DNA of 64,000 nucleotides, taken from positions 186,001 through 250,000 of the forward strand of contig JAHHGX010000020.1 in the NCBI GenBank assembly GCA_019359675.1, given 5' to 3'. Made by a program: the position numbers and the translations under genes. This DNA comes from Calothrix sp. FI2-JRJ7. GTDB lineage: Bacteria; Cyanobacteriota; Cyanobacteriia; Cyanobacteriales; Nostocaceae. Of this stretch, positions 4,481-58,191 are shown piece by piece. Numbering within the stretch: position 1 is the stretch's first letter; each line of letters opens with the position of its first letter. Below the pieces are notes generated by a model that did not search any database, was not told where the DNA came from, and saw only the letters and a list, made by a program, of their open reading frames with translations.

Positions 4481-4637
4481 TAGTTACATCCGTTGGCGCC
4501 GTCCAAGAAGCTCTGGGGTTATAAAACGACAGGGAGAAATTGTGCTTATCCGTATTCTCAACACAAGCACCTAATTCCTTAACGTAAATAAACTGTGTGT
4601 TCCTGCAATAGTTATAGGGCAGTATGAATAACTATAA

Positions 4638-5018
4638 CTATATATCTTCCTCGTTTTCAACAGTAGTTTGCTCATATTCAGCAATAATACTGTTTATTTC
4701 GGAAGCTGCGATATCAACTTGTTCTGATTTTGTATAAATAGTAAGCAAAATGATAGTTGTTGCTATTTTTACATAATAAATAAGCCGATATCCACCACTT
4801 TTGCCTTTTTTGATATCACTGTTGCGGATTCTTAACTTAAAAACGATATAGTTAGTACCAGATATTTGGTCGCCGGGAAGCTCTCCTTGTTGAAGTTGTT
4901 CAATTACAGGTTGTACATCGCTGCGAATACTCCGATACTTTTTGGCAAGGTTACGTAGATTTCCCTTAAAAGTAGGCGCCGCTTCAACTTGTATAATTTC
5001 TTGCTCAGACATCTTCAA
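4638..5018 (-). CDS. RelE-family toxin
   Basis: 126 residues. The core 'LAKKYRSIRSDVQPVIEQL...GYRLIYYV...ILLTIYTKSEQVDI' is typical of cyanobacterial RelE/HigB-like mRNA interferases: a basic helix, the central G-Y-R-L-I-Y strand, and the KSEQxDI near-terminal motif. The start overlaps the upstream antitoxin gene (5005-5250) by 14 bp, an operon layout identical to the pair at the left edge. An internal ATG at residue 3 is an alternative start. The acidic C-terminal tail is slightly longer than usual. Confidence 0.85.
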   Translation of the reverse strand: MKMSEQEIIQVEAAPTFKGNLRNLAKKYRSIRSDVQPVIEQLQQGELPGDQISGTNYIVFKLRIRNSDIKKGKSGGYRLIYYVKIATTIILLTIYTKSEQVDIAASEINSIIAEYEQTTVENEEDI

Positions 5019-5250
5019 TTCCTTCCCAAAGCTGAGAAGCAGGAATAGTTTTGCCTGTCATTGCTTCATGCCAAGCTTGGCGAAAGTCCTCTAGAACTGC
5101 TTCTTTTGTTTGGTCTTCTTTATCAATATCTGTTTCTTCAGAAACAAGGACAATTACTTCAACACGCCTATTTTTATCTATCATTAAAGGATTATCTAAA
5201 GTAAGCTGTCCTTGCTCATCAATCGTTGCCATAACTTTAACTGCCTTCAT
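5005..5250 (-). CDS. Antitoxin partner of the RelE-like toxin
   Basis: 81 residues beginning MKAVKVMATIDEQGQLTLDN, a small beta-rich N-terminus (AbrB/SpoVT-like or a DUF-type antitoxin), followed by an acidic helix and a 'FRQAWHEAMTG...LWEGIED' tail that is common in cyanobacterial antitoxins. It is translated first and overlaps the toxin gene by 14 bp. The upstream 140 bp up to the next gene should hold the promoter; no clear operator was seen. Confidence 0.75.
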   Translation of the reverse strand: MKAVKVMATIDEQGQLTLDNPLMIDKNRRVEVIVLVSEETDIDKEDQTKEAVLEDFRQAWHEAMTGKTIPASQLWEGIEDV

Positions 5251-5390
5251 GGGTATACCTTATGCAAGCTCTCCATATTTATTTTAGCCGCAGCTTGGGT
5301 GGAGCGCAGCCAGATTTGCAGCTTCTTCAGCCCACATATTTACTATTTCAGGTTAAATTTTAATTGAATTTCCCACAAGCTCTCTTATTG

Positions 5391-24231: not shown

Positions 24232-26775
24232 TTACCGTCGCGGACTGGGTGTTTTTGATAATGATTTCCAGTCTTGAGCAATTTTTTGAGTCCACAACCA
24301 ATTTTGATTGAGTTTATCGGGTTGGAAGCTTACCGGGTCTTCGCTTATTACTTTTTGTTGTAATTTTACTGCTTCGTCAAGATATCGCTCACGTTTTGCA
24401 GGGGGTTGTAAGCGCGCTGATTTATATAATCCTAGCGCTAGTCCAGCATGAGCGATTAAGTCTTGGCGTTGCTGTGGTACTACTGATGCGTTTGCTGCTG
24501 ACATGTTTGAGACTTTTGGCTGTTGGGATGAAGCAGCAATACTTAAGGCTTGAAACCAAGAATCATTAGCTAAATTAATATTACCTTCTGCGTAGTAAGC
24601 AAAACCTAAAGCGTTAGCATATACTATAGAGTCTGGTTTAGCTTTAAATGCTGTATTCCAGTAACGACGAGCATCATCAATACTATATTTTTTGTCACCT
24701 GCTTGTATCGATTGCCATGCAAGGCGCCCGAATGAGAAACTTACAGATGGGTTATCAATGTTTCGCTGGGGTACTTGTTTAAGTACAGATTCTGCCTCTG
24801 CAAGTGCATTACGATTTAATAAGGCATCGACGGCTTTTAATGCTGTGTCTAAATCACCTTGATTAAGTCTCTCAGTGGCAAATGCTGTAACTTTTTCAGT
24901 TTTTTCTCTCTCTAAATTAATTTTACTGTAATCTGGCGCCGTTATTTGAGGTAGGTTCGATAATGTGTTTGGTTGGCTTTGCCACCAGTTAATACCAACA
25001 GCAAATGTAATCGCACCTGCTCCTACAAGTCCAATGAGTGGTATTAATTTTCTTGATTTACGACGTGGTACGCCAGGTTCGATAATGCTAATTGGGTCAT
25101 GAGATGTTGCTCGGTTTGTCCTCACCTCCTGAGTGTTACCAACGGTCATTTCGTTACCCTGGAGATTATTTGATACTAAAGATTCTGACTCCCTTGCCGC
25201 TCTTTCTCGGCGCCATTTTTCGACTTCGCGGTCTAAAGAAGTTAAATCATCAGAGACTTCAACACCAGGGATACTATCATCATCTTCGTCATCGTCAAGG
25301 ATAGAAGTATTTATTGGAGTTTGTTCACTTGCCGTTTTTTGCTGGTCGAGTTGGCGAAATAAATCGGAAACTATCGCCGAATCATCAGCATAACTTGGGT
25401 CATCATAATCTTCGATTTCGTCAACTAAGTCACCCCAAGTTTCTTCTCCTAACCAATCAAGTTCTAAGTCATTTTGTCCCAATGACCTCGACATGACATG
25501 ATCGATTGGTAATGACATTTGAGCATCATCACCGATATTACTATATAGTGCATTTGTTGCCCTTATATTTGGTGGTTCACCGTACTCAGGCAATAATTCA
25601 CTTCTTTGCTGTACATATAATCCAGGGCTTAGATTACCATTAAATTCTGATTGGAGATATAAAATTGGTAAAGCCCAATACATTTGGTGCGAACCGTAAG
25701 CGGAAATTAATCCCTGACGTACACGACTTACGCACAAATCAATTGGATACCCTTGACTGAGATTACGATAAAACAGTTGTGTTAGTGTTAGCGCTACTTC
25801 ATCTGGAATTCGTTCGGACATCGCTAAGACACTAGGAATACCTCGTTTAACTAAACTCTCAGCTAAACTTTGCTCTCCCGCTTCTGTAGTACCTGTGCTG
25901 GCGCCATAAGCTCCCAAACACGAATTAAACACCGCCATTTGGATGTTATTGTTAACCAGCAAACCAGCTAAATCATCACCAGTTAAAGTCTCTGTTAAAC
26001 CAGTGCGTCGATTTACAAGATAAATTTCACCACCGTTTGCACCCAAGTTACTGTGACCTGAGTAATGCAAAATATGATAGCGTCCTTGTTCCAAGGCTTG
26101 CGTCAATTCTTCCCGTCCCGGTTGCTCAAGAAAGTACAACTGTATATCTGGGAAAAAATGACCACCTTCGGTAATATTTGGTGTTTGACGATTTAGTTCC
26201 GCTTGAAGTTTAATAGCTTCTTGCTTGAGCAAATCTAATCGCACTAAATCGGTTGGAGAGGCAAGCACCATTAATACCTTAATTCCACCCTCATCAGGTG
26301 GTATGGGCATATTCGTTGATGGTAAACGTGAGGCGCCTGCTACTCCAGTTTGGTAACGAGAAAATGAAATATAAGGACCTGTGGCAATAGGACGGTCACC
26401 AGCGTGCATAACCTCCCAAGGTAAGCGCGCTAATCGATTATCTTTAATTCCAATACGCAAATGCAGAACTTGTTGATGGTTTTGTGCAATGCCTTGTGCA
26501 GTAATCCAACTATCTCTGAGAGTGCCTTGAAAAAGTTCGTTATATAATTGTTGACCCAGCGCCGCTAAGTTGACCGAGTTCCGCACCATTGCATCTCCCT
26601 GCAACACGGACTTAAGCGGGTCATTCATAATATGTCCAGCAGCAGCTAACCATTCAGCTACAGGCCAAGTCACCAGTTCTTCCGCTAATGGCACCCCAGA
26701 CGCGACTTGTTCCGTTCGTACCAAGTAGTCATTTTGTCCTACCAGTGTTACGGAAATGTGAAATTCCTGGGTCAC
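24232..26775 (-). CDS. hetF: HetF, CHAT-domain protease of heterocyst differentiation
   Basis: 847 residues. A CHAT/caspase-like domain spans about 160-375: 'HYSGHSNLGANGGEIYL' supplies H241 and 'AVFNSCLGAYGAS' supplies C286, the His-Cys pair. An acidic linker with 'DDDEDDD' (about 496-500) and one transmembrane span at about 576-598 (LIPLIGLVGAGAITFAVGI) lead to TPR-like repeats to the end. HetF is needed for heterocyst formation and controls HetR levels in Anabaena. The call rests on domain order and on the tandem NsiR1-like array immediately upstream, the same synteny as in Anabaena. The first array unit is antisense to a leader region of this gene. Confidence 0.9.
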   Translation of the reverse strand: MTQEFHISVTLVGQNDYLVRTEQVASGVPLAEELVTWPVAEWLAAAGHIMNDPLKSVLQGDAMVRNSVNLAALGQQLYNELFQGTLRDSWITAQGIAQNHQQVLHLRIGIKDNRLARLPWEVMHAGDRPIATGPYISFSRYQTGVAGASRLPSTNMPIPPDEGGIKVLMVLASPTDLVRLDLLKQEAIKLQAELNRQTPNITEGGHFFPDIQLYFLEQPGREELTQALEQGRYHILHYSGHSNLGANGGEIYLVNRRTGLTETLTGDDLAGLLVNNNIQMAVFNSCLGAYGASTGTTEAGEQSLAESLVKRGIPSVLAMSERIPDEVALTLTQLFYRNLSQGYPIDLCVSRVRQGLISAYGSHQMYWALPILYLQSEFNGNLSPGLYVQQRSELLPEYGEPPNIRATNALYSNIGDDAQMSLPIDHVMSRSLGQNDLELDWLGEETWGDLVDEIEDYDDPSYADDSAIVSDLFRQLDQQKTASEQTPINTSILDDDEDDDSIPGVEVSDDLTSLDREVEKWRRERAARESESLVSNNLQGNEMTVGNTQEVRTNRATSHDPISIIEPGVPRRKSRKLIPLIGLVGAGAITFAVGINWWQSQPNTLSNLPQITAPDYSKINLEREKTEKVTAFATERLNQGDLDTALKAVDALLNRNALAEAESVLKQVPQRNIDNPSVSFSFGRLAWQSIQAGDKKYSIDDARRYWNTAFKAKPDSIVYANALGFAYYAEGNINLANDSWFQALSIAASSQQPKVSNMSAANASVVPQQRQDLIAHAGLALGLYKSARLQPPAKRERYLDEAVKLQQKVISEDPVSFQPDKLNQNWLWTQKIAQDWKSLSKTPSPRR

Positions 26776-26969
26776 AACTTCTCCTGTTCGTCTCCTAAAT
26801 CACTTGATTGAAATGGGAATATTCATTCATAAATATCTCTATAAATGTTCCCTTCCCTACTAATACCTTAGATGCATCCTCATAGCGGAATGTTTCACGC
26901 TCTCAGGTATTACCCAAGCTTTGACCAGTTTATCCGGATATCATCGCTTCGGCGCCGAACATCGTATTT

Positions 26970-27027
26970 GGTAGATGCACCTTAATCTTCAGTCCCCCAA
27001 TTGGTCTAAATCAAATGGGGGTTTTCT
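26970..27027 (+). ncRNA. nsiR1: NsiR1-like copy 1 (hetF-proximal)
   Basis: TCCGGA at 26933-26938 precedes GGTAGATGCACC at 26970 by 37 nt. The terminator pairs CCCCC(A) at 26994 with (T)GGGGG at 27017 and ends in TTTTC. This is the most divergent unit; a GGCGCC lies in its promoter spacer. Its location near the hetF start places the RNA antisense to the likely hetF leader. Confidence 0.75.
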
Positions 27028-27230
27028 CTATTTATACATAACGGTTGGGCACCGAAAGCTCTCACTTATGAATCCCATGTAACTAATTTATCTCAAAAAC
27101 AATATACTTTCACTACAAATACTCAGTATTTTACAGAAAATAACTGCAAAACACTCCAGTACAACATGATTAGAGATTTTAGTTTTTCAATATATCCGGA
27201 TAATGCTTGTGATTTTGAGAACAAGTATAT

Positions 27231-27290
27231 GGTAGATGCACCCTGATAATTAACCTCCCCTAGTTGGAAGCTTTCTACTAGGGGTTTTTT
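27231..27290 (+). ncRNA. nsiR1: NsiR1-like copy 2
   Basis: TCCGGA at 27195-27200, RNA head GGTAGATGCACCCTGATAAT at 27231, terminator CCCCTAG...CTAGGGGTTTTTT ending at 27290. Confidence 0.88.
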
Positions 27291-27304
27291 GTGTCTATCA
27301 AAAA

Positions 27305-27370
27305 AGAAACCCGGTTTCTGTCCAAAATTGTGATTTTTATTACAGATTTCCAAAAAGAAACCGGGTTTCT
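27305..27370. repeat. Family C repeat inside the NsiR1 array
   Basis: AGAAACCCGGTTTCT at 27305-27319 and AGAAACCGGGTTTCT at 27356-27370 flank a core TTGTGATTTTTATTACA, which is the reverse complement of the core seen in the 58125 copy. It fills the spacer between RNA copies 2 and 3. Confidence 0.75.
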
Positions 27371-27422
27371 AGGGTTTTCAAATTTTTCCGGAATAGGCTT
27401 GTAATTTATAGAACAAGTATAT

Positions 27423-27483
27423 GGTAGATGCACCCTGATAACTTACTCCCTTAGCTATTTAATTACGGCTGAGGGTTTTTTTT
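27423..27483 (+). ncRNA. nsiR1: NsiR1-like copy 3
   Basis: TCCGGA at 27387-27392, GGTAGATGCACCCTGATAAC at 27423, terminator CCCTTAGC...GCTGAGGG then T-run to 27483. Confidence 0.88.
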
Positions 27484-27528
27484 ACAATTTTTTCCGGAAT
27501 AACCTTGTAGCTTTAAGAACAAGTATAT

Positions 27529-27591
27529 GGTAGACGCACCCTGATAACCCACTCCCCTAATTGACTAAATGTTTAATTAGGGGTTTTTTTT
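27529..27591 (+). ncRNA. nsiR1: NsiR1-like copy 4
   Basis: TCCGGA at 27493-27498 only 10 bp after the copy 3 terminator. The head reads GGTAGACGCACCCTGATAAC. Terminator CCCCTAATTG...AATTAGGGG with an 8-T run. Confidence 0.88.
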
Positions 27592-27674
27592 GGCATTTTT
27601 TGGTGATGCAAAAATTTTCTCGCTTGAAATAAAAATTTTCCGGAATAGGTAGATGTAAGCACGAACAAGTAGAT

Positions 27675-27736
27675 GGTAGATGCACCCTAATAATTCACTC
27701 CCTCGGACGGTAACAACCAACTGAGGGAATTTTTTT
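27675..27736 (+). ncRNA. nsiR1: NsiR1-like copy 5
   Basis: TCCGGA at 27639-27644, GGTAGATGCACCCTAATAAT at 27675. Terminator CCCTCGG...CTGAGGG followed by AATTTTTTT, slightly weaker than the others. Confidence 0.85.
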
Positions 27737-27822
27737 GTCCATTTAATCTGCTACTAAAATTTTTGCTATCAATAGCAACAAAAATATCCGGACAGCACTG
27801 GTTATCAAGAGAACAAGTAAAT

Positions 27823-27872
27823 GGTAGATGCACCCTGATAACTCACTCCCCTAGTAGACTGCCATCCGCTAG
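27823..27872 (+). ncRNA. nsiR1: NsiR1-like copy 6
   Basis: TCCGGA at 27787-27792, GGTAGATGCACCCTGATAAC at 27823, terminator CCCCTAG...CTAGGGGTTTTTTT. Its 3' half is nearly the same as copy 8. Confidence 0.88.
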
Positions 27873-27968
27873 GGGTTTTTTTATGGCTATATTTACGACC
27901 TTGAACCAATTTTGAAGTAATACTCCAATTCTTCCTGAAGATGACCCTTAGATAACGAACAAGTAGTT

Positions 27969-28026
27969 GGTAGATGCACCCTGATAACTCACTCCCTAGT
28001 AGATTTCCATCCGCTAGGGTTTTTTA
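27969..28026 (+). ncRNA. nsiR1: NsiR1-like copy 7 (degenerate promoter)
   Basis: The -35-like element is TCCTGA (27933-27938) rather than TCCGGA, but spacing to GGTAGATGCACCC is still 36. The terminator is intact (CCCTAG...CTAGGGTTTTTT). It may be weakly transcribed. Confidence 0.8.
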
Positions 28027-28068
28027 TTGTAATCATAACGACACGAAATTGACAACTATCTCAAGCAA

Positions 28069-28133
28069 AGAAACCTGGTTTCTACGCAAAATACTCATTT
28101 CTATTACAAGTTATCTAAAGAAACCAGGTTTCT
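28069..28133. repeat. Family C repeat inside the NsiR1 array
   Basis: AGAAACCTGGTTTCT at 28069-28083 and AGAAACCAGGTTTCT at 28119-28133 bracket a core with TTTCTATTACAAG. It lies between RNA copies 7 and 8. Confidence 0.75.
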
Positions 28134-28177
28134 AAGATTCGTCCTGAAAACGACTACTATGCAGCGAACAATAAAGT

Positions 28178-28236
28178 GGTAGATGCACCCTAATAACTCA
28201 CTCCCCTAGTAGACTGCCATCCGCTAGGGGTTTTTT
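28178..28236 (+). ncRNA. nsiR1: NsiR1-like copy 8 (degenerate promoter)
   Basis: TCCTGA at 28142-28147, spacing 36 to GGTAGATGCACCCTAATAAC at 28178; terminator CCCCTAG...CTAGGGGTTTTTT. A headless partial unit (AATAACTCACTCCC, no terminator) follows at about 28268. Confidence 0.8.
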
Positions 28237-28343
28237 CATGGCTATTTGCTGCCACATTTACAACACCTTAATAACTCACTCCCTTGATAGAGCGCCTGTT
28301 TATTGATGCAATTATCGAATAAATACTTAACCTTCAGAAATGT

Positions 28344-28349
28344 TCCGGA
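28344..28349 (+). promoter_or_regulatory. Orphan TCCGGA element
   Basis: A TCCGGA hexamer with no NsiR1 head at +36. It lies 205 bp before the thioredoxin-like gene (28554). In Anabaena, TCCGGA near -35 marks a class of heterocyst-associated promoters. This could be a leftover of a ninth unit or a promoter for the downstream gene. Confidence 0.35.
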
Positions 28350-28553: not shown

Positions 28554-28874
28554 ATGGCTTATTCTGTGATTAAGTTTTCGAGTGAAGATTGCGGTATTTG
28601 TCACAAAATGGCTTTCTATGACCAGAAAGTATCAGCAGAGCTTGGTTTAGAGTTTATTGATGTCAAGATGCAGGATACAGCGACTTACCGTAAATATCGA
28701 CAAATACTTTTGAAGCAATATCCCGATAAGTCAGAGATGGGATGGCCAACTTATATTGTATGCTCGGCGCCGTCTGGAGAGTTTGAAATTGTAGGCGAAG
28801 TAAAAGGGGGACATCCCAAAGGAGAGTTTCGAGAACGCTTGCAAGCAGTGTTAAATTCTGTTCCTGCTCAGTAG
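28554..28874 (+). CDS. Thioredoxin-family protein
   Basis: 106 residues. 'SSEDCGICHKMAFYD' gives a C13-G-I-C16 redox pair, followed by 'GLEFIDVKMQDTATYRKYRQ' and 'MGWPTYIVCSAP', where the proline before the T-Y-I strand matches the thioredoxin cis-Pro position. Small soluble reductase or thiol-sensing domain without a signal peptide. It lies just beyond the NsiR1 array, facing away from hetF. Target unknown. Confidence 0.8.
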   Translation: MAYSVIKFSSEDCGICHKMAFYDQKVSAELGLEFIDVKMQDTATYRKYRQILLKQYPDKSEMGWPTYIVCSAPSGEFEIVGEVKGGHPKGEFRERLQAVLNSVPAQ

Positions 28875-29153: not shown

Positions 29154-31013
29154 TTATTGTGCAGTTTTTTCTTCGTTTGTCACAATAAAGTGAGCGAGAC
29201 CGTAACAGATGACGGCATTAACGAGAAGGAAAATTCTTGATATCCAATCGGCGCCTAAACCCCATACAGCAGGGTCAGAGAATGAACTAACCCCCAAACA
29301 TGTGGCGATACCTATTGAAGAACCAATAGCAAACCATTTTAATTTTGGATGTCCTAATAGCAAAGCAACTAGACCTAAAGGAATAAGTACGCTTGCGAAG
29401 ATAGGATTAAATGCATCAGTTCCTTGAATAGCGTTACCAAGTTCAGGAATAGAGCTACCTAGTACACGGAAGGGCCACTGTGGTAAATCAAAGATATAAA
29501 GTCCTTTGAGAGGAAATAAACCTGAGCTACCAAAAAGTAAACCTGCCGATAAACTCCAACTCCATGAGAATGGGAAGTAAACCCGTAGGAACCAAGCAAG
29601 CAGGTAAGAACCTACAACCATGAGAAGTTTTGGTATTAGTGCATATGCACCACCATCAATCCAGAAACGAGGATTGAGGTAACCGTTTTCACGTAACCAG
29701 CGCCAAAAGTCTTGGAAAGTAATTTGACCTTCGGTAGCTTGCTTAACTGCGGCTTCGGCGTTGAGTTGTCCGGCGCCGTAATAGTTTAAACCATCTTCAT
29801 GAATAGCCCGTGCGGAACCAAGAAGTACGTTTTCAATTTCCGATGGATTTTCAACTCCTGATGCACGAACTAAAGCAGCAACACCGGCAACATGGGGAGA
29901 TGCCATGCTAGTACCTTGTAAACCAAGGAATACTTCTTCTCCTTTGTTATCCATATCAACGGTTGCTTGGAGAACCTTACCAGCATCACTACCACCAGGG
30001 GCAGAAATATCAACACCTGCACCATAGTTAGAATAAGGCGCCCTTTCTCCATCAGGACCAAGTGCAGAAACACCGATAACGTGGGGATAGCGTGCAGGAT
30101 ATGCGGCGCCGTTAGCGTCTTCGTTACCAGCAGCAGCAATAATAACTACACCTTTACTGTGTGCATAGTCAATTGCTTCTTTCATCAACTGGCTTTCACC
30201 ACCACCACCCAAGCTCATATTAATAACGTTGGCGCCGTTGTCAGCAGCAAAGCGAATAGCTTCGGCAATATCAGCAACAGTACCACCACCGTAATCACTA
30301 AGAACCTTTAAAGGCATAATGCTGGCTTCATATGCAATACCCGCAACACCCCAACTATTATTAGTAGCTTGAGCAATAGTTCCGGCTACGTGTGTCCCAT
30401 GTCCATTGTCATCGTTTGCTTTTTCACGGTCGTTAACAAAGTCGTAACCTTTGACAAACTTAGTTTCAATCAAATCACGAACTTGTGTAACACCCGTGTC
30501 AATGACAGCAACGGTAACACCACTACCCTTAGTTTGTTTCCAGGCGCCTTCAACATTAATATTGTGTAAGTGCCATTGTTTGCTGTAATAAGGGTCATTT
30601 GCACCAGTTAATAAAGGTGCAGGTTCTTTAGATTCTTCTGGTCGCGGGTCGAGATATTCTGCAAGTCTTGCGACTTGACCTTGTTTAGGAATCTTGTAAA
30701 TATAGTTAGGTTCAATGAATTCGGTATCTTTTGCGAATTCAGAGCGCAACTGCTTAAGACGCGCTTTGTCACCTTTGATAATATAAACGTTATCCTTTTC
30801 GGAAAATTTATTATCCAGCTTTGGCGTGACGTTGAACTGCTGCGAGATTTTAGCCAAATCTTGCTGCAACTTGGTAGAAGGGATATCTTCCCGGAAGTCA
30901 AGTAGGAGCGTCTTAAACTCCCCTTGGGCGCCAAGTCCCTGGAAGTTAACGAAATTGAATAAGGCTGCACACAGCCCTATCACAAACAAACAAGTTAGTA
31001 TTAGCCTTCTCAT
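29154..31013 (-). CDS. S8 subtilase with C-terminal membrane domain
   Basis: 619 residues. Signal peptide/anchor in the first 30 (MRRLILTCLFVIGLCAALF). Propeptide-like region to about 135. Catalytic triad: D172 in 'VAVIDTGVT', H205 in 'NGHGTHVAGTI', S369 in 'GTSMASPHVAG', oxyanion N297 in 'AAAGNEDA'. After about 460 come four or five hydrophobic spans (for example LIPKLLMVVGSYLLAWFL), so the protease is tethered with its tail in the membrane, unlike simple secreted subtilases. It should process or degrade periplasmic or extracellular proteins. Confidence 0.9.
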   Translation of the reverse strand: MRRLILTCLFVIGLCAALFNFVNFQGLGAQGEFKTLLLDFREDIPSTKLQQDLAKISQQFNVTPKLDNKFSEKDNVYIIKGDKARLKQLRSEFAKDTEFIEPNYIYKIPKQGQVARLAEYLDPRPEESKEPAPLLTGANDPYYSKQWHLHNINVEGAWKQTKGSGVTVAVIDTGVTQVRDLIETKFVKGYDFVNDREKANDDNGHGTHVAGTIAQATNNSWGVAGIAYEASIMPLKVLSDYGGGTVADIAEAIRFAADNGANVINMSLGGGGESQLMKEAIDYAHSKGVVIIAAAGNEDANGAAYPARYPHVIGVSALGPDGERAPYSNYGAGVDISAPGGSDAGKVLQATVDMDNKGEEVFLGLQGTSMASPHVAGVAALVRASGVENPSEIENVLLGSARAIHEDGLNYYGAGQLNAEAAVKQATEGQITFQDFWRWLRENGYLNPRFWIDGGAYALIPKLLMVVGSYLLAWFLRVYFPFSWSWSLSAGLLFGSSGLFPLKGLYIFDLPQWPFRVLGSSIPELGNAIQGTDAFNPIFASVLIPLGLVALLLGHPKLKWFAIGSSIGIATCLGVSSFSDPAVWGLGADWISRIFLLVNAVICYGLAHFIVTNEEKTAQ

Positions 31014-54522: not shown

Positions 54523-54542
54523 TTAAATCATTTCCTTCATGA

Positions 54543-54632
54543 AAGAGCTTCCCTCCGCTGGTATTACCCAGACTCAGGTGTTAAGGGTGTAATCTCAGCC
54601 CGGTTTCACTCAGGCACCCCTAGCAAGGAAAT
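54543..54632 (-). promoter_or_regulatory. TPP riboswitch (THI element) of thiC
   Basis: On the minus strand: AGGGGTGCCTGAGTGAAACC, GGCTGAGATTACACCC, then CTGAGTCTGGGTAATACC and AGCGGAGGGAAGC. These are the conserved blocks (GGGGTGCC, CTGAGA, ACCC, CTGA...GGGTAATACCAGCGGAGGGA) of the thiamin pyrophosphate riboswitch. It ends about 25 bp before the thiC start, so it probably blocks ribosome access when TPP is bound. Confidence 0.93.
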
Positions 54633-57491: not shown

Positions 57492-58178
57492 TTGTCCCCC
57501 ATGACCGATATAGAATATAAGTATATTATTTTTTACAAGCCATACGGCGTACTGTGCCAATTTACACGCGATACCCCAGAACGTCAAACTCTCCAAGATT
57601 ATATAGATGTCCCAGATGTTTATCCAGTTGGGCGCCTGGACTGGGATAGTGAAGGTTTAGTATTATTAACGAACCACGGACAACTGCAACACCGTTTATC
57701 TGACCCAAAGTTTGGACACGAACGAAGTTATTGGGTACAAGTAGAGCGTATCCCCACTGAGGAAGCTTTGTCCCAATTACGTACTGGTGTAAAAATTCAA
57801 GATTACCGTTCTAGAAGCGCGAAAGTTCGGTTATTGCCACAAGCACCAGATGTACCCCAACGTAACCCACCGATAAGATTTAGAAAAAATGTCGATACTG
57901 CATGGTTAGAGATGACCCTGACTGAGGGAAAAAATCGCCAAGTTCGTAGAATGACCGCAGCAGTAGGTTTTCCAACATTGAGATTAGTACGTTTCCAAAT
58001 CGCCCATCTAATGTTAGATACTTTACAGATGGGTGAATGGCGCCACCTCACATCTGCTGAAGTCGATTTGCTGCATAATATTGTTTTTACAAGCTGTAAT
58101 TATAAACAGGTGGTCAAAAAACCTAGAAACCCGGTTTCTTCGATGAAATCTTGTAATAAAAATAACGATTTTGCATAG
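57492..58178 (+). CDS. Pseudouridine synthase, RsuA/RluE family
   Basis: 228 residues. 'YKPYGVLCQFTRDTPERQTL', the catalytic Asp in 'PVGRLDWDSEGLVLLTNHG' and 'LTEGKNRQVRRMTAAVGFPTLRLVR' identify an RsuA/RluB/RluE-type rRNA pseudouridine synthase, most like RluE. The C-terminal 20 residues (KKPRNPVSSMKSCNKNN...) are encoded by a family C repeat that runs over the end, so the true protein probably ended earlier. Confidence 0.9.
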   Translation: MSPMTDIEYKYIIFYKPYGVLCQFTRDTPERQTLQDYIDVPDVYPVGRLDWDSEGLVLLTNHGQLQHRLSDPKFGHERSYWVQVERIPTEEALSQLRTGVKIQDYRSRSAKVRLLPQAPDVPQRNPPIRFRKNVDTAWLEMTLTEGKNRQVRRMTAAVGFPTLRLVRFQIAHLMLDTLQMGEWRHLTSAEVDLLHNIVFTSCNYKQVVKKPRNPVSSMKSCNKNNDFA

Positions 58179-58191
58179 AAACCGGGTTTCT
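58125..58191. repeat. Family C repeat overlapping the pseudouridine synthase C-terminus
   Basis: AGAAACCCGGTTTCT at 58125-58139 and AGAAACCGGGTTTCT at 58177-58191 flank TTGTAATAAAAATAACGATT. The repeat supplies the last codons and the stop of 57492-58178, i.e. it inserted into the end of a coding frame. Confidence 0.8.

Follow-up and report, generated by a model that had tools for sequence, protein, structure and literature searches.

What would eight copies of one small RNA gene, standing side by side next to a gene of the division machinery, do for a cyanobacterium, and on which messages would they act? The question is raised by a stretch of 64,000 nucleotides from Calothrix sp. FI2-JRJ7 (hereafter the window), in which the promoter hexamers and RNAs of eight tandem NsiR1 genes span positions 26933-28238 of the plus strand, directly upstream of and divergent from the divisome gene hetF. 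Our answer, to which we assign as a whole a probability of about 0.8, is that the locus is a multi-copy NsiR1 array whose RNAs have hetF and hetP as targets for pairing with their conserved 5' head. The identity of the units, their promoter motif and terminators, the constraint on each unit, and the conservation of both candidate sites and of the gene order are established. On this basis the array would be the orthologue of the Nostoc NsiR1 array, made up of eight separate small-RNA genes of about 60 nt. Each of these has a DIF1-type promoter (TCCGGA or TCCTGA, at about -35) and an intrinsic terminator to itself and would, by analogy with Nostoc, be switched on where HetR is active; the HetR gene is present in the genome. 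The units would jointly supply a multi-copy RNA whose head pairs with the target messages. The first target would be hetF, with unit 1 antisense to its leader and a separate conserved 8-nt leader site letting the other units act in trans; the second would be hetP, through a 10-nt complement about 310 nt past a HetR-type box, and a higher copy number would mean a larger dose on all targets. We infer that the units are transcribed, that they depend on HetR, that the pairing takes place in the cell and that it lowers HetF and HetP.

The units were identified with the Rfam model of NsiR1 (RF02399, gathering score 39 bits), which all eight exceed on the plus strand with 45.9-67.9 bits (coordinates in Table 1). 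As the initial annotation of this DNA had described, eight units with a hexamer and a terminator lie beside hetF: each has a stem-loop followed by a T-rich stretch, and each carries, about 35 nt before the RNA start, a DIF1 hexamer of the form given in PMC6133370, where one mismatch is permitted. Units 1-6 have the hexamer TCCGGA and units 7-8 have TCCTGA, also as had been read, and the distance from hexamer to GGTAG is 36 nt (37 in unit 1). The hexamer count by itself is not significant (11 in the window against 6.1 expected, with 6 of 100 shuffles reaching 11), so that what counts is the fixed spacing to the head. When up to three mismatches are allowed, the window holds nine matches to the 16-nt head, eight in the units and one in the hetF leader, against 0.35 expected, and none of 100 shuffles of the window reaches this number. 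The claim that the units are NsiR1-like holds, but the constant head once ascribed to them does not: the 19-nt head GGTAGATGCACCCTGATAA is exact only in units 2, 3, 6 and 7, with the variants CACCTTAATC in unit 1, GACG in unit 4 (a C for T that is absent from four aligned relatives) and CCCTAAT in units 5 and 8. The unit heads are also designated by TGGTAGATG. No two of the eight units are identical; they are predicted to fold into a weakly paired head and a terminator stem, and 5 of 13 consensus stem pairs have pair-keeping changes on both sides. The identity of the divergent gene at 24232-26775 was judged by the NCBIfam equivalog NF045509, 'cell division protein HetF', whose cut-off of 1200 bits it passes with 1409, and together with the Rfam matches this bears out the recognition of the NsiR1-hetF locus known from Anabaena. 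A short interspersed element, built of AGAAACCNGGTTTCT palindromes about 35 nt apart, was also seen at 27303-27370, 28067-28133, 58125-58191 and 43183; two copies lie within the array, and the window holds seven of the palindromes where none are expected.

A search with the HetF of this genome gave 166 relatives, the best 80 of which were used as named hetF loci, a unit being counted in them where a DIF1-type hexamer with at most one mismatch stands at -36 to -39. Such a unit lies upstream of hetF in 78 of the 80; the two loci without one are L123, whose upstream sequence covers just 392 bases, and L173 (Nostoc sp. TH1S01), where it covers 6 kb (here and below, G, C and L are codes for genomes, contigs and loci, G000 being this genome). 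Among the 57 loci with at least 2.5 kb of upstream DNA the copy number is 0 in one and 3-14 in the other 56, with a mode of 5. The nearest relatives by HetF identity, Calothrix HK-06 (97%), Dulcicalothrix desertica PCC 7102 and Calothrix PCC 7716 (both 96%), also have eight hexamer-bearing units, and in 59 of the 78 unit-bearing loci the distance from hetF to the start of the first unit is 160-199 nt; neither the copy number nor unit 1 is therefore particular to this genome, as the initial annotation had assumed. An array of this kind at hetF is a published type of locus and, as a locus, ordinary. Its units, by contrast with the DNA between them, hardly change. The window was aligned to HK-06, PCC 7102 and PCC 7716, three comparisons that share the branch of the window and are not independent, and to the more distant NIES-4105. 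Against each of the close relatives the heads differ at 1 of 144 sites (the same window change in unit 4), the hexamers at 0 of 48 and the T-runs at 0 of 40, with divergences of 2.8-3.2% in the terminator stem-loops, 4.5-8.0% in the -14 to -1 stretch and 5.6-7.0% in the inter-unit DNA; against NIES-4105, which has seven units and in which unit 3 is misaligned, the heads diverge by 0.076 and the inter-unit DNA by 0.323. The change in unit 4 falls inside the pairing stretch and is predicted to weaken the pairing. Because of this constraint on each of them, all eight units are probably active; the dosage device that had been proposed would fit the constraint as far as multi-copy dosage goes, the activity of the units being inferred.

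The leader of hetF was compared in 81 sequences (the window and the 80 named loci); L152, L163, L171 and L173 were dropped, a start codon being in the aligned position only in the other 77. The RNA of unit 1 sits 194-254 nt upstream of the hetF start, and the hetF transcription start of Nostoc is reported at -256 (PMC8406250); unit 1 is expected to be antisense to the hetF leader in this genome. Closer to hetF lies the head-like site listed in Table 1, three mismatches from the head and without hexamer or terminator, and the hetF mRNA carries an 8-nt complement of the NsiR1 head, UGCAUCUA, 94-101 nt before the start codon. The commonest 8-mers of the leaders are the overlapping TTAGATGC (75/77) and TAGATGCA (74/77, 72-106 nt before the start), with the ribosome-site complement GCCTCCTA in 66/77. 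Seven 8-mers reach 65 leaders, and a uniform model gives a chance of about 0.001 that one of them equals any of the 12 head 8-mers, a value to be read with the overlap of the seven 8-mers and the kinship of the leaders in mind. Predicted duplex energies at the window site are -15.9 to -18.6 kcal/mol, and the 8-nt site is missing, within 420 nt, from all eight hetF leaders of other GTDB families. In Nostoc, hetF is partly regulated by NsiR1.4 (PMC9045159); the leader site would fit both this partial regulation and the small effect of removing nsiR1.1, and would offer a simple reason why loss of unit 1 does little.

The window's GTDB family is represented by 36 genomes, and the second candidate target emerged from 24 of them, in stretches of 3.2 kb around the best HetP-family match. 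No 10-mers are commoner there than CTGCATCTAC and TGCATCTACC (17 each); the latter, the exact complement of GGTAGATGCA, is on the sense strand in 17 of 24 hetP loci and on the other strand in none. In this genome an exact 11-nt complement of the head lies at G000:C36:11396-11406 (-), 637 nt before the hetP domain; the same site, L100 reverse strand 864-874, lies 31 nt upstream of a reading frame of 163 aa located ahead of hetP, and its flanks are also conserved, in the arrangement AGAGGACAAAAC-site-AAGAGCCA. A HetR-type GGGG-CCCC palindrome precedes the site by 286-327 nt in 14 of the 17 loci, mostly by 311-315, and HetR is reported to bind GAGGGGTCTAACCCCTC in the Anabaena hetP promoter, where GGGN5CCC is needed (PMC4192349, PMC4649674). 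Since a HetR-type box stands about 310 nt before it, the site is probably part of a long leader of hetP. The duplexes predicted here range from -14.7 (unit 4) to -25.0 kcal/mol (unit 1), values computed without a shuffle control. The hetP site would be the stronger of the two candidate trans sites, and a head complement as the commonest upstream 10-mer suggests that the RNA has a target central to the commitment decision.

A number of observations weigh against this reading. For hetF, a search for its promoter gave in the expected region a best -10-like score no better than that of a control region, and GATGCATC is a palindrome and could therefore be a DNA site. Pairing is poor beyond the 8-nt core: the best 16-nt match has 3 mismatches in 8 leaders, 4 in 20, 5 in 14, 6 in 33 and 7 in 6, so that 39 of the 81, including those of PCC 7102 and PCC 7716, have 6-7 mismatches. 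The duplex energy is only moderately better than that of shuffled leaders (n=200), being matched by 2% of them for units 2 and 3 and by up to 13.5% for unit 4. A structural switch at the ribosome site was considered and set aside, as the predicted accessibility is unchanged when the hetF site is occupied, and a Nostoc hetF reporter without nsiR1.1 or its -10 box is reported to show little change in fluorescence (PMC8406250). For hetP, the exact 10-mer is missing from 7 of 24 loci and the exact 11-mer from all ten HetP loci of other families, and the conserved block is wider than the complement, so that pairing need not be its only reason. In 13 hetR loci, checked as controls for the head complement on both strands, TGCATCTA was found in none on the sense strand and in six on the opposite strand; the 8-mer alone can thus be kept for other reasons. 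The six (L306, L309, L311, L312, L313 and L318) have it in similar places, probably in coding sequence. Finally, this genome has one HetP-family gene (E<=0.001), so that alr3234, the hetP-like gene which NsiR1.4 represses in Nostoc and which is a published NsiR1 target besides hetF (PMC9045159), has no visible counterpart.

The head is also found outside the array. A genome-wide count that allows up to two mismatches gives 25 occurrences of the 16-nt head, compared with one of the reversed pattern. Beyond the array, 14 heads have a promoter-like and terminator-like frame and three (on C39, C67 and C85) do not; ten of the 14 carry the exact 15-mer TAGATGCACCCTGAT and four have one mismatch. Eight of the framed units are NsiR1-like (two each on C5, C6 and C87, one each on C8 and C71); the hexamer differs from TCCGGA at no more than one position in seven of them and is TTCTGA in the eighth, C6:76876; C5:25602, the C8 unit and both C6 units score above the Rfam threshold. 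The C8 unit (L012, 5063, minus strand) lies between lgt and cobM, on the strand opposite both. The remaining six, which we call class B, lack a DIF1 hexamer and instead carry a TATAAT-like box 11-14 nt upstream of the head: one is on C13 and five form a second tandem array between gatB and argJ on C35 (L014, G000:C35:12000-22000, units 4573-5320, minus strand), with five copies also in G004 (L222). Only two of the five C35 units are reported by the NsiR1 model, at 33.2 and 32.3 bits, both short of the gathering score of 39, and class B was not filed as NsiR1 because only the head is in common. A common cis target for the dispersed DIF1 copies was looked for and dropped, lgt and cobM at C8 sharing no theme with gatB and argJ at C35.

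Two promoter classes are also apparent in 245 distinct contexts of the exact 15-mer TAGATGCACCCTGAT, taken outside the named hetF set from loci chosen by search rank and not at random: 179 belong to class A (DIF1), 47 to class B (-10 box), one to both and 18 to neither. Of the 245 contexts, 180 have a DIF1-like hexamer at -36 to -39, against 6 and 1 for two shifted intervals, and 230 have a terminator-like end after the head, against 91 of 1225 random places. GGGN5CCC occurs within 60 nt upstream of 36 of the 47 class B heads, mostly starting at -41, and of 7 of the 18 others, none of the 179 class A heads and 86 of 5000 random 60-mers; class B is therefore for the most part a HetR-box class. 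The view that it is independent of HetR was abandoned, as the palindrome before most class B heads is the HetR core (PMC4192349, PMC4649674). In this genome the right arm of the box is degenerate, and the exact core is found in one of the six units. The neighbours of 28 class B or B-like loci were also examined: 15 of the loci lie beside gatB and 13 beside argJ, one such locus coming from outside the order, and in L199 and L186 a class B promoter precedes a body that scores as NsiR1 above threshold. Rfam microRNA matches on L199 and L205 were below the gathering scores of those families and were ignored. The Nostoc RNA 4547237r (51 nt, PMC4734099) fits class B in size; identity is not claimed without its sequence.

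Which genomes carry such units? The exact 15-mer is present in 91 of 386 genomes of the phylum, and the reversed control in none of the matches listed. Co-occurrence was examined in 80 genomes, partly picked for carrying the head, with kinship only roughly allowed for and with drafts among them that may miss genes; HetR was detected by PF03574 and NifH by an above-cut-off match, the latter being added as a marker because some HetR-less genomes have HetP, which was not relied on alone. Class A was found in 44 genomes, HetR in 49 and class B in 36. HetR and class A occur together in 43 genomes, HetR alone in 6, class A alone in 1 and neither in 30 (Fisher p = 6e-15); over 39 GTDB families the same counts are 19/2/1/17 (p = 6e-8), and for class B over the 80 genomes they are 34/15/2/29 (p = 1e-8). 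Against the link to HetR stand G043, the sole HetR-less class A carrier, which also has a boxed class B but no HetR match (perhaps missed in the draft); G052, with class B but neither HetR nor the box; G023, which has HetR and only a one-mismatch class A unit; and G058, G087, G098, G107 and G129, with HetR and no class A. At L272 (G043:C200) the five DIF1-type units beside a hetF homologue have TCCTGA or TCCCGA, never TCCGGA. NifH scores above cut-off in 25 of the 44 class A genomes and is not found at that level in 19, including the one-contig G082 and G145, and among 60 relatives class A is present in six of the seven HetR-bearing genomes without a HetP-family gene. The DIF1-plus-head signature thus appears to follow HetR, not nitrogenase.

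The distant carriers also bear on the age of the pairing with hetF. In other families, single DIF1 units face a hetF homologue at 278 nt in G039, 215 in G049, 351 in G046, 299 in G396 and 355 in G082, the last outside the order; G055 has three units and G043 five beside the homologue, and in G056 one unit lies at a distance of 1.8 kb, flanked as in the window by a TrxL-like and an S8 gene. In these eight genomes the gene is the best HetF match, its best piece scoring 575-941 bits, below the NCBIfam 1200, so that 'hetF homologue' is the safe name. In two further genomes the array has retained the S8 gene with hetF no longer adjacent: L269 (G145:C1:1224000-1243000) and L270 (G036:C13) hold 10 and 9 tandem units beside it, and neither genome has NifH above cut-off. 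The order hetF, unit or units, TrxL-like gene where present, and S8 gene in the relatives is that of the window. The simplest account would be an ancestral unit beside hetF that was multiplied in some lineages; the present array would have arisen by tandem duplication of one older DIF1 unit that faced hetF, and the NsiR1-hetF module is probably older than heterocysts. We further put forward, as a tentative proposal whose parts taken jointly fall somewhat short of even odds, that NsiR1 is one arm of an old HetR-linked RNA network and not a heterocyst invention. Cyanobacteria both possessing and lacking nitrogenase would make RNAs with the same head from two kinds of HetR-linked promoter, one with the DIF1 hexamer and one, as a rule next to gatB, with the GGGN5CCC box; the DIF1 unit and hetF would be the ancestral pair; the heterocyst-forming family would have multiplied the hetF-side unit, while the head gained its leader sites at hetF and hetP; and HetR would drive hetP directly and check hetP and HetF through the RNA, in an incoherent feed-forward loop. 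If HetR is accompanied by a hetF-facing DIF1 unit in cyanobacteria lacking nitrogenase too, the control of cell division, and not nitrogen fixation, may be one of the early outputs of HetR.

The strongest competitor of the two-target array, which we regard as less probable though deserving attention, holds that only unit 1 matters for hetF, as an antisense RNA, that the other units are sub-functionalised for other messages and that the leader site is unrelated. A division of labour of this kind is published for Nostoc, with NsiR1.4 and alr3234 (PMC9045159), the head difference of unit 1, CACCTTAATC, is kept in all five aligned genomes, and the poor pairing beyond the core at hetF in many genomes, together with a hetP site that would be a target of its own for the other units, agrees with it. 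The leader 8-mer is, however, among the two most frequent of the leader, and in Nostoc hetF is partly under NsiR1.4 (PMC9045159) and changes little in the reporter without nsiR1.1 (PMC8406250), which weighs against this rival.

Two further alternatives were weighed. That the array is a passive by-product of tandem duplication and concerted evolution, with most units neutral, could be argued from the spread of 3-14 copies among the 56 unit-bearing loci, from the one remnant unit and from the private change within the pairing stretch of unit 4; the retention of hexamer and T-run in all eight units and of the head in seven while the spacers drift, and the stem pairs changed on both sides, make it very improbable, and gene conversion is a poor explanation because no two units are identical. 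Least probable, in our judgement, is that the hexamers act at the DNA level, by titrating HetR or a HetR-dependent factor or by serving as its landing site, with the RNAs secondary: DIF1-type sites with the head do track HetR across genomes (43/6/1/30), but conservation is about equally strong in the RNA head and the hexamer, and the complement of the head is conserved at hetP and hetF. The multi-copy array acting on hetF and hetP remains our preferred reading.

The flanks of the locus are summarized in Table 1. The 106-aa gene, for which no Pfam or NCBIfam match was obtained at E<=0.001, starts at 28554, about 200 nt after an extra TCCGGA at 28344-28349 that might be its DIF1 promoter. Elsewhere in the window, a TPP riboswitch at 54533-54631 (minus strand) scores above the Rfam gathering score.

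Table 1. Features of the NsiR1-hetF locus (positions in the window)
Feature	Position	Strand	Details
hetF (CHAT-domain cell division protein HetF)	24232-26775	-	GTG start at 26775; NF045509 1409 bits; Pfam CHAT
Head-like site TTAGATGCATCCTCAT in hetF leader, candidate trans target	26868-26883	+	closer to hetF than unit 1
Unit 1	26933-27029	+	TCCGGA 26933-26938, RNA 26969-27029; RF02399 45.9 bits
Unit 2	27195-27292	+	TCCGGA 27195-27200, RNA 27230-27292; RF02399 61.2 bits
Unit 3	27387-27483	+	TCCGGA 27387-27392, RNA 27422-27483; RF02399 66.7 bits
Unit 4	27493-27591	+	TCCGGA 27493-27498, RNA 27528-27591; RF02399 56.7 bits
Unit 5	27639-27735	+	TCCGGA 27639-27644, RNA 27674-27735; RF02399 49.8 bits
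Unit 6	27787-27883	+	TCCGGA 27787-27792, RNA 27822-27883; RF02399 67.9 bits
Unit 7	27933-28028	+	TCCTGA 27933-27938, RNA 27968-28028; RF02399 57.9 bits
Unit 8	28142-28238	+	TCCTGA 28142-28147, RNA 28177-28238; RF02399 60.9 bits
Remnant of ninth repeat CACCTTAATAACTCACTCCC	28264-28296	+	second half of head and linker only; direct repeat family D2, 82%
Conserved flank gene, 106 aa, working name TrxL	28554-28874	+
S8 subtilase gene, locus flank	29154-31013	-	Pfam PF00082/PF19366

The array repeats a published system in another strain, and the locus is useful through comparison. In Nostoc (Anabaena) sp. PCC 7120, 12 NsiR1 copies with a DIF1 promoter each are reported, nsiR1.1 being antisense to the hetF 5' untranslated region (PMC9045159), and the array there is likewise divergent from hetF, with several near-identical units and with the unit nearest hetF divergent in sequence (PMC9045159, PMC8406250). 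Unlike it, the present array has eight units, contains no run of identical copies and has TCCTGA as the hexamer of units 7 and 8, in a genome with one HetP-family gene. Tandem repeats upstream of hetF, 12 in number, are likewise reported in Nodularia spumigena CCY9414 (PMC3610870). RNA162 of the non-heterocystous Limnospira indica PCC 8005, of 57 nt and said to resemble NsiR1, is consistent with a wide distribution; hetF linkage, promoter motif and array are not given in the available text of that source (PMC8400943). The HetR-bound hetP promoter, a 17-bp inverted repeat with the core GGGN5CCC, has the same kind of box as that before most class B heads; there the box drives hetP, and the available parts of the two sources describe no small RNA behind such a box (PMC4192349, PMC4649674). 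The leader sites, class B and the dispersed copies were not found described in the literature surveyed, a scope outside which the founding NsiR1 papers lie, and the comparison suggests that the candidate trans sites at hetF and hetP, the dispersed and class B head genes and the HetR-linked distribution are what is new here. A parallel to such a family is Yfr1/Yfr10, RNA genes that have one motif in common while, as here, neither their remaining sequence nor their synteny is shared, the motif itself being a different one (PMC6778093).

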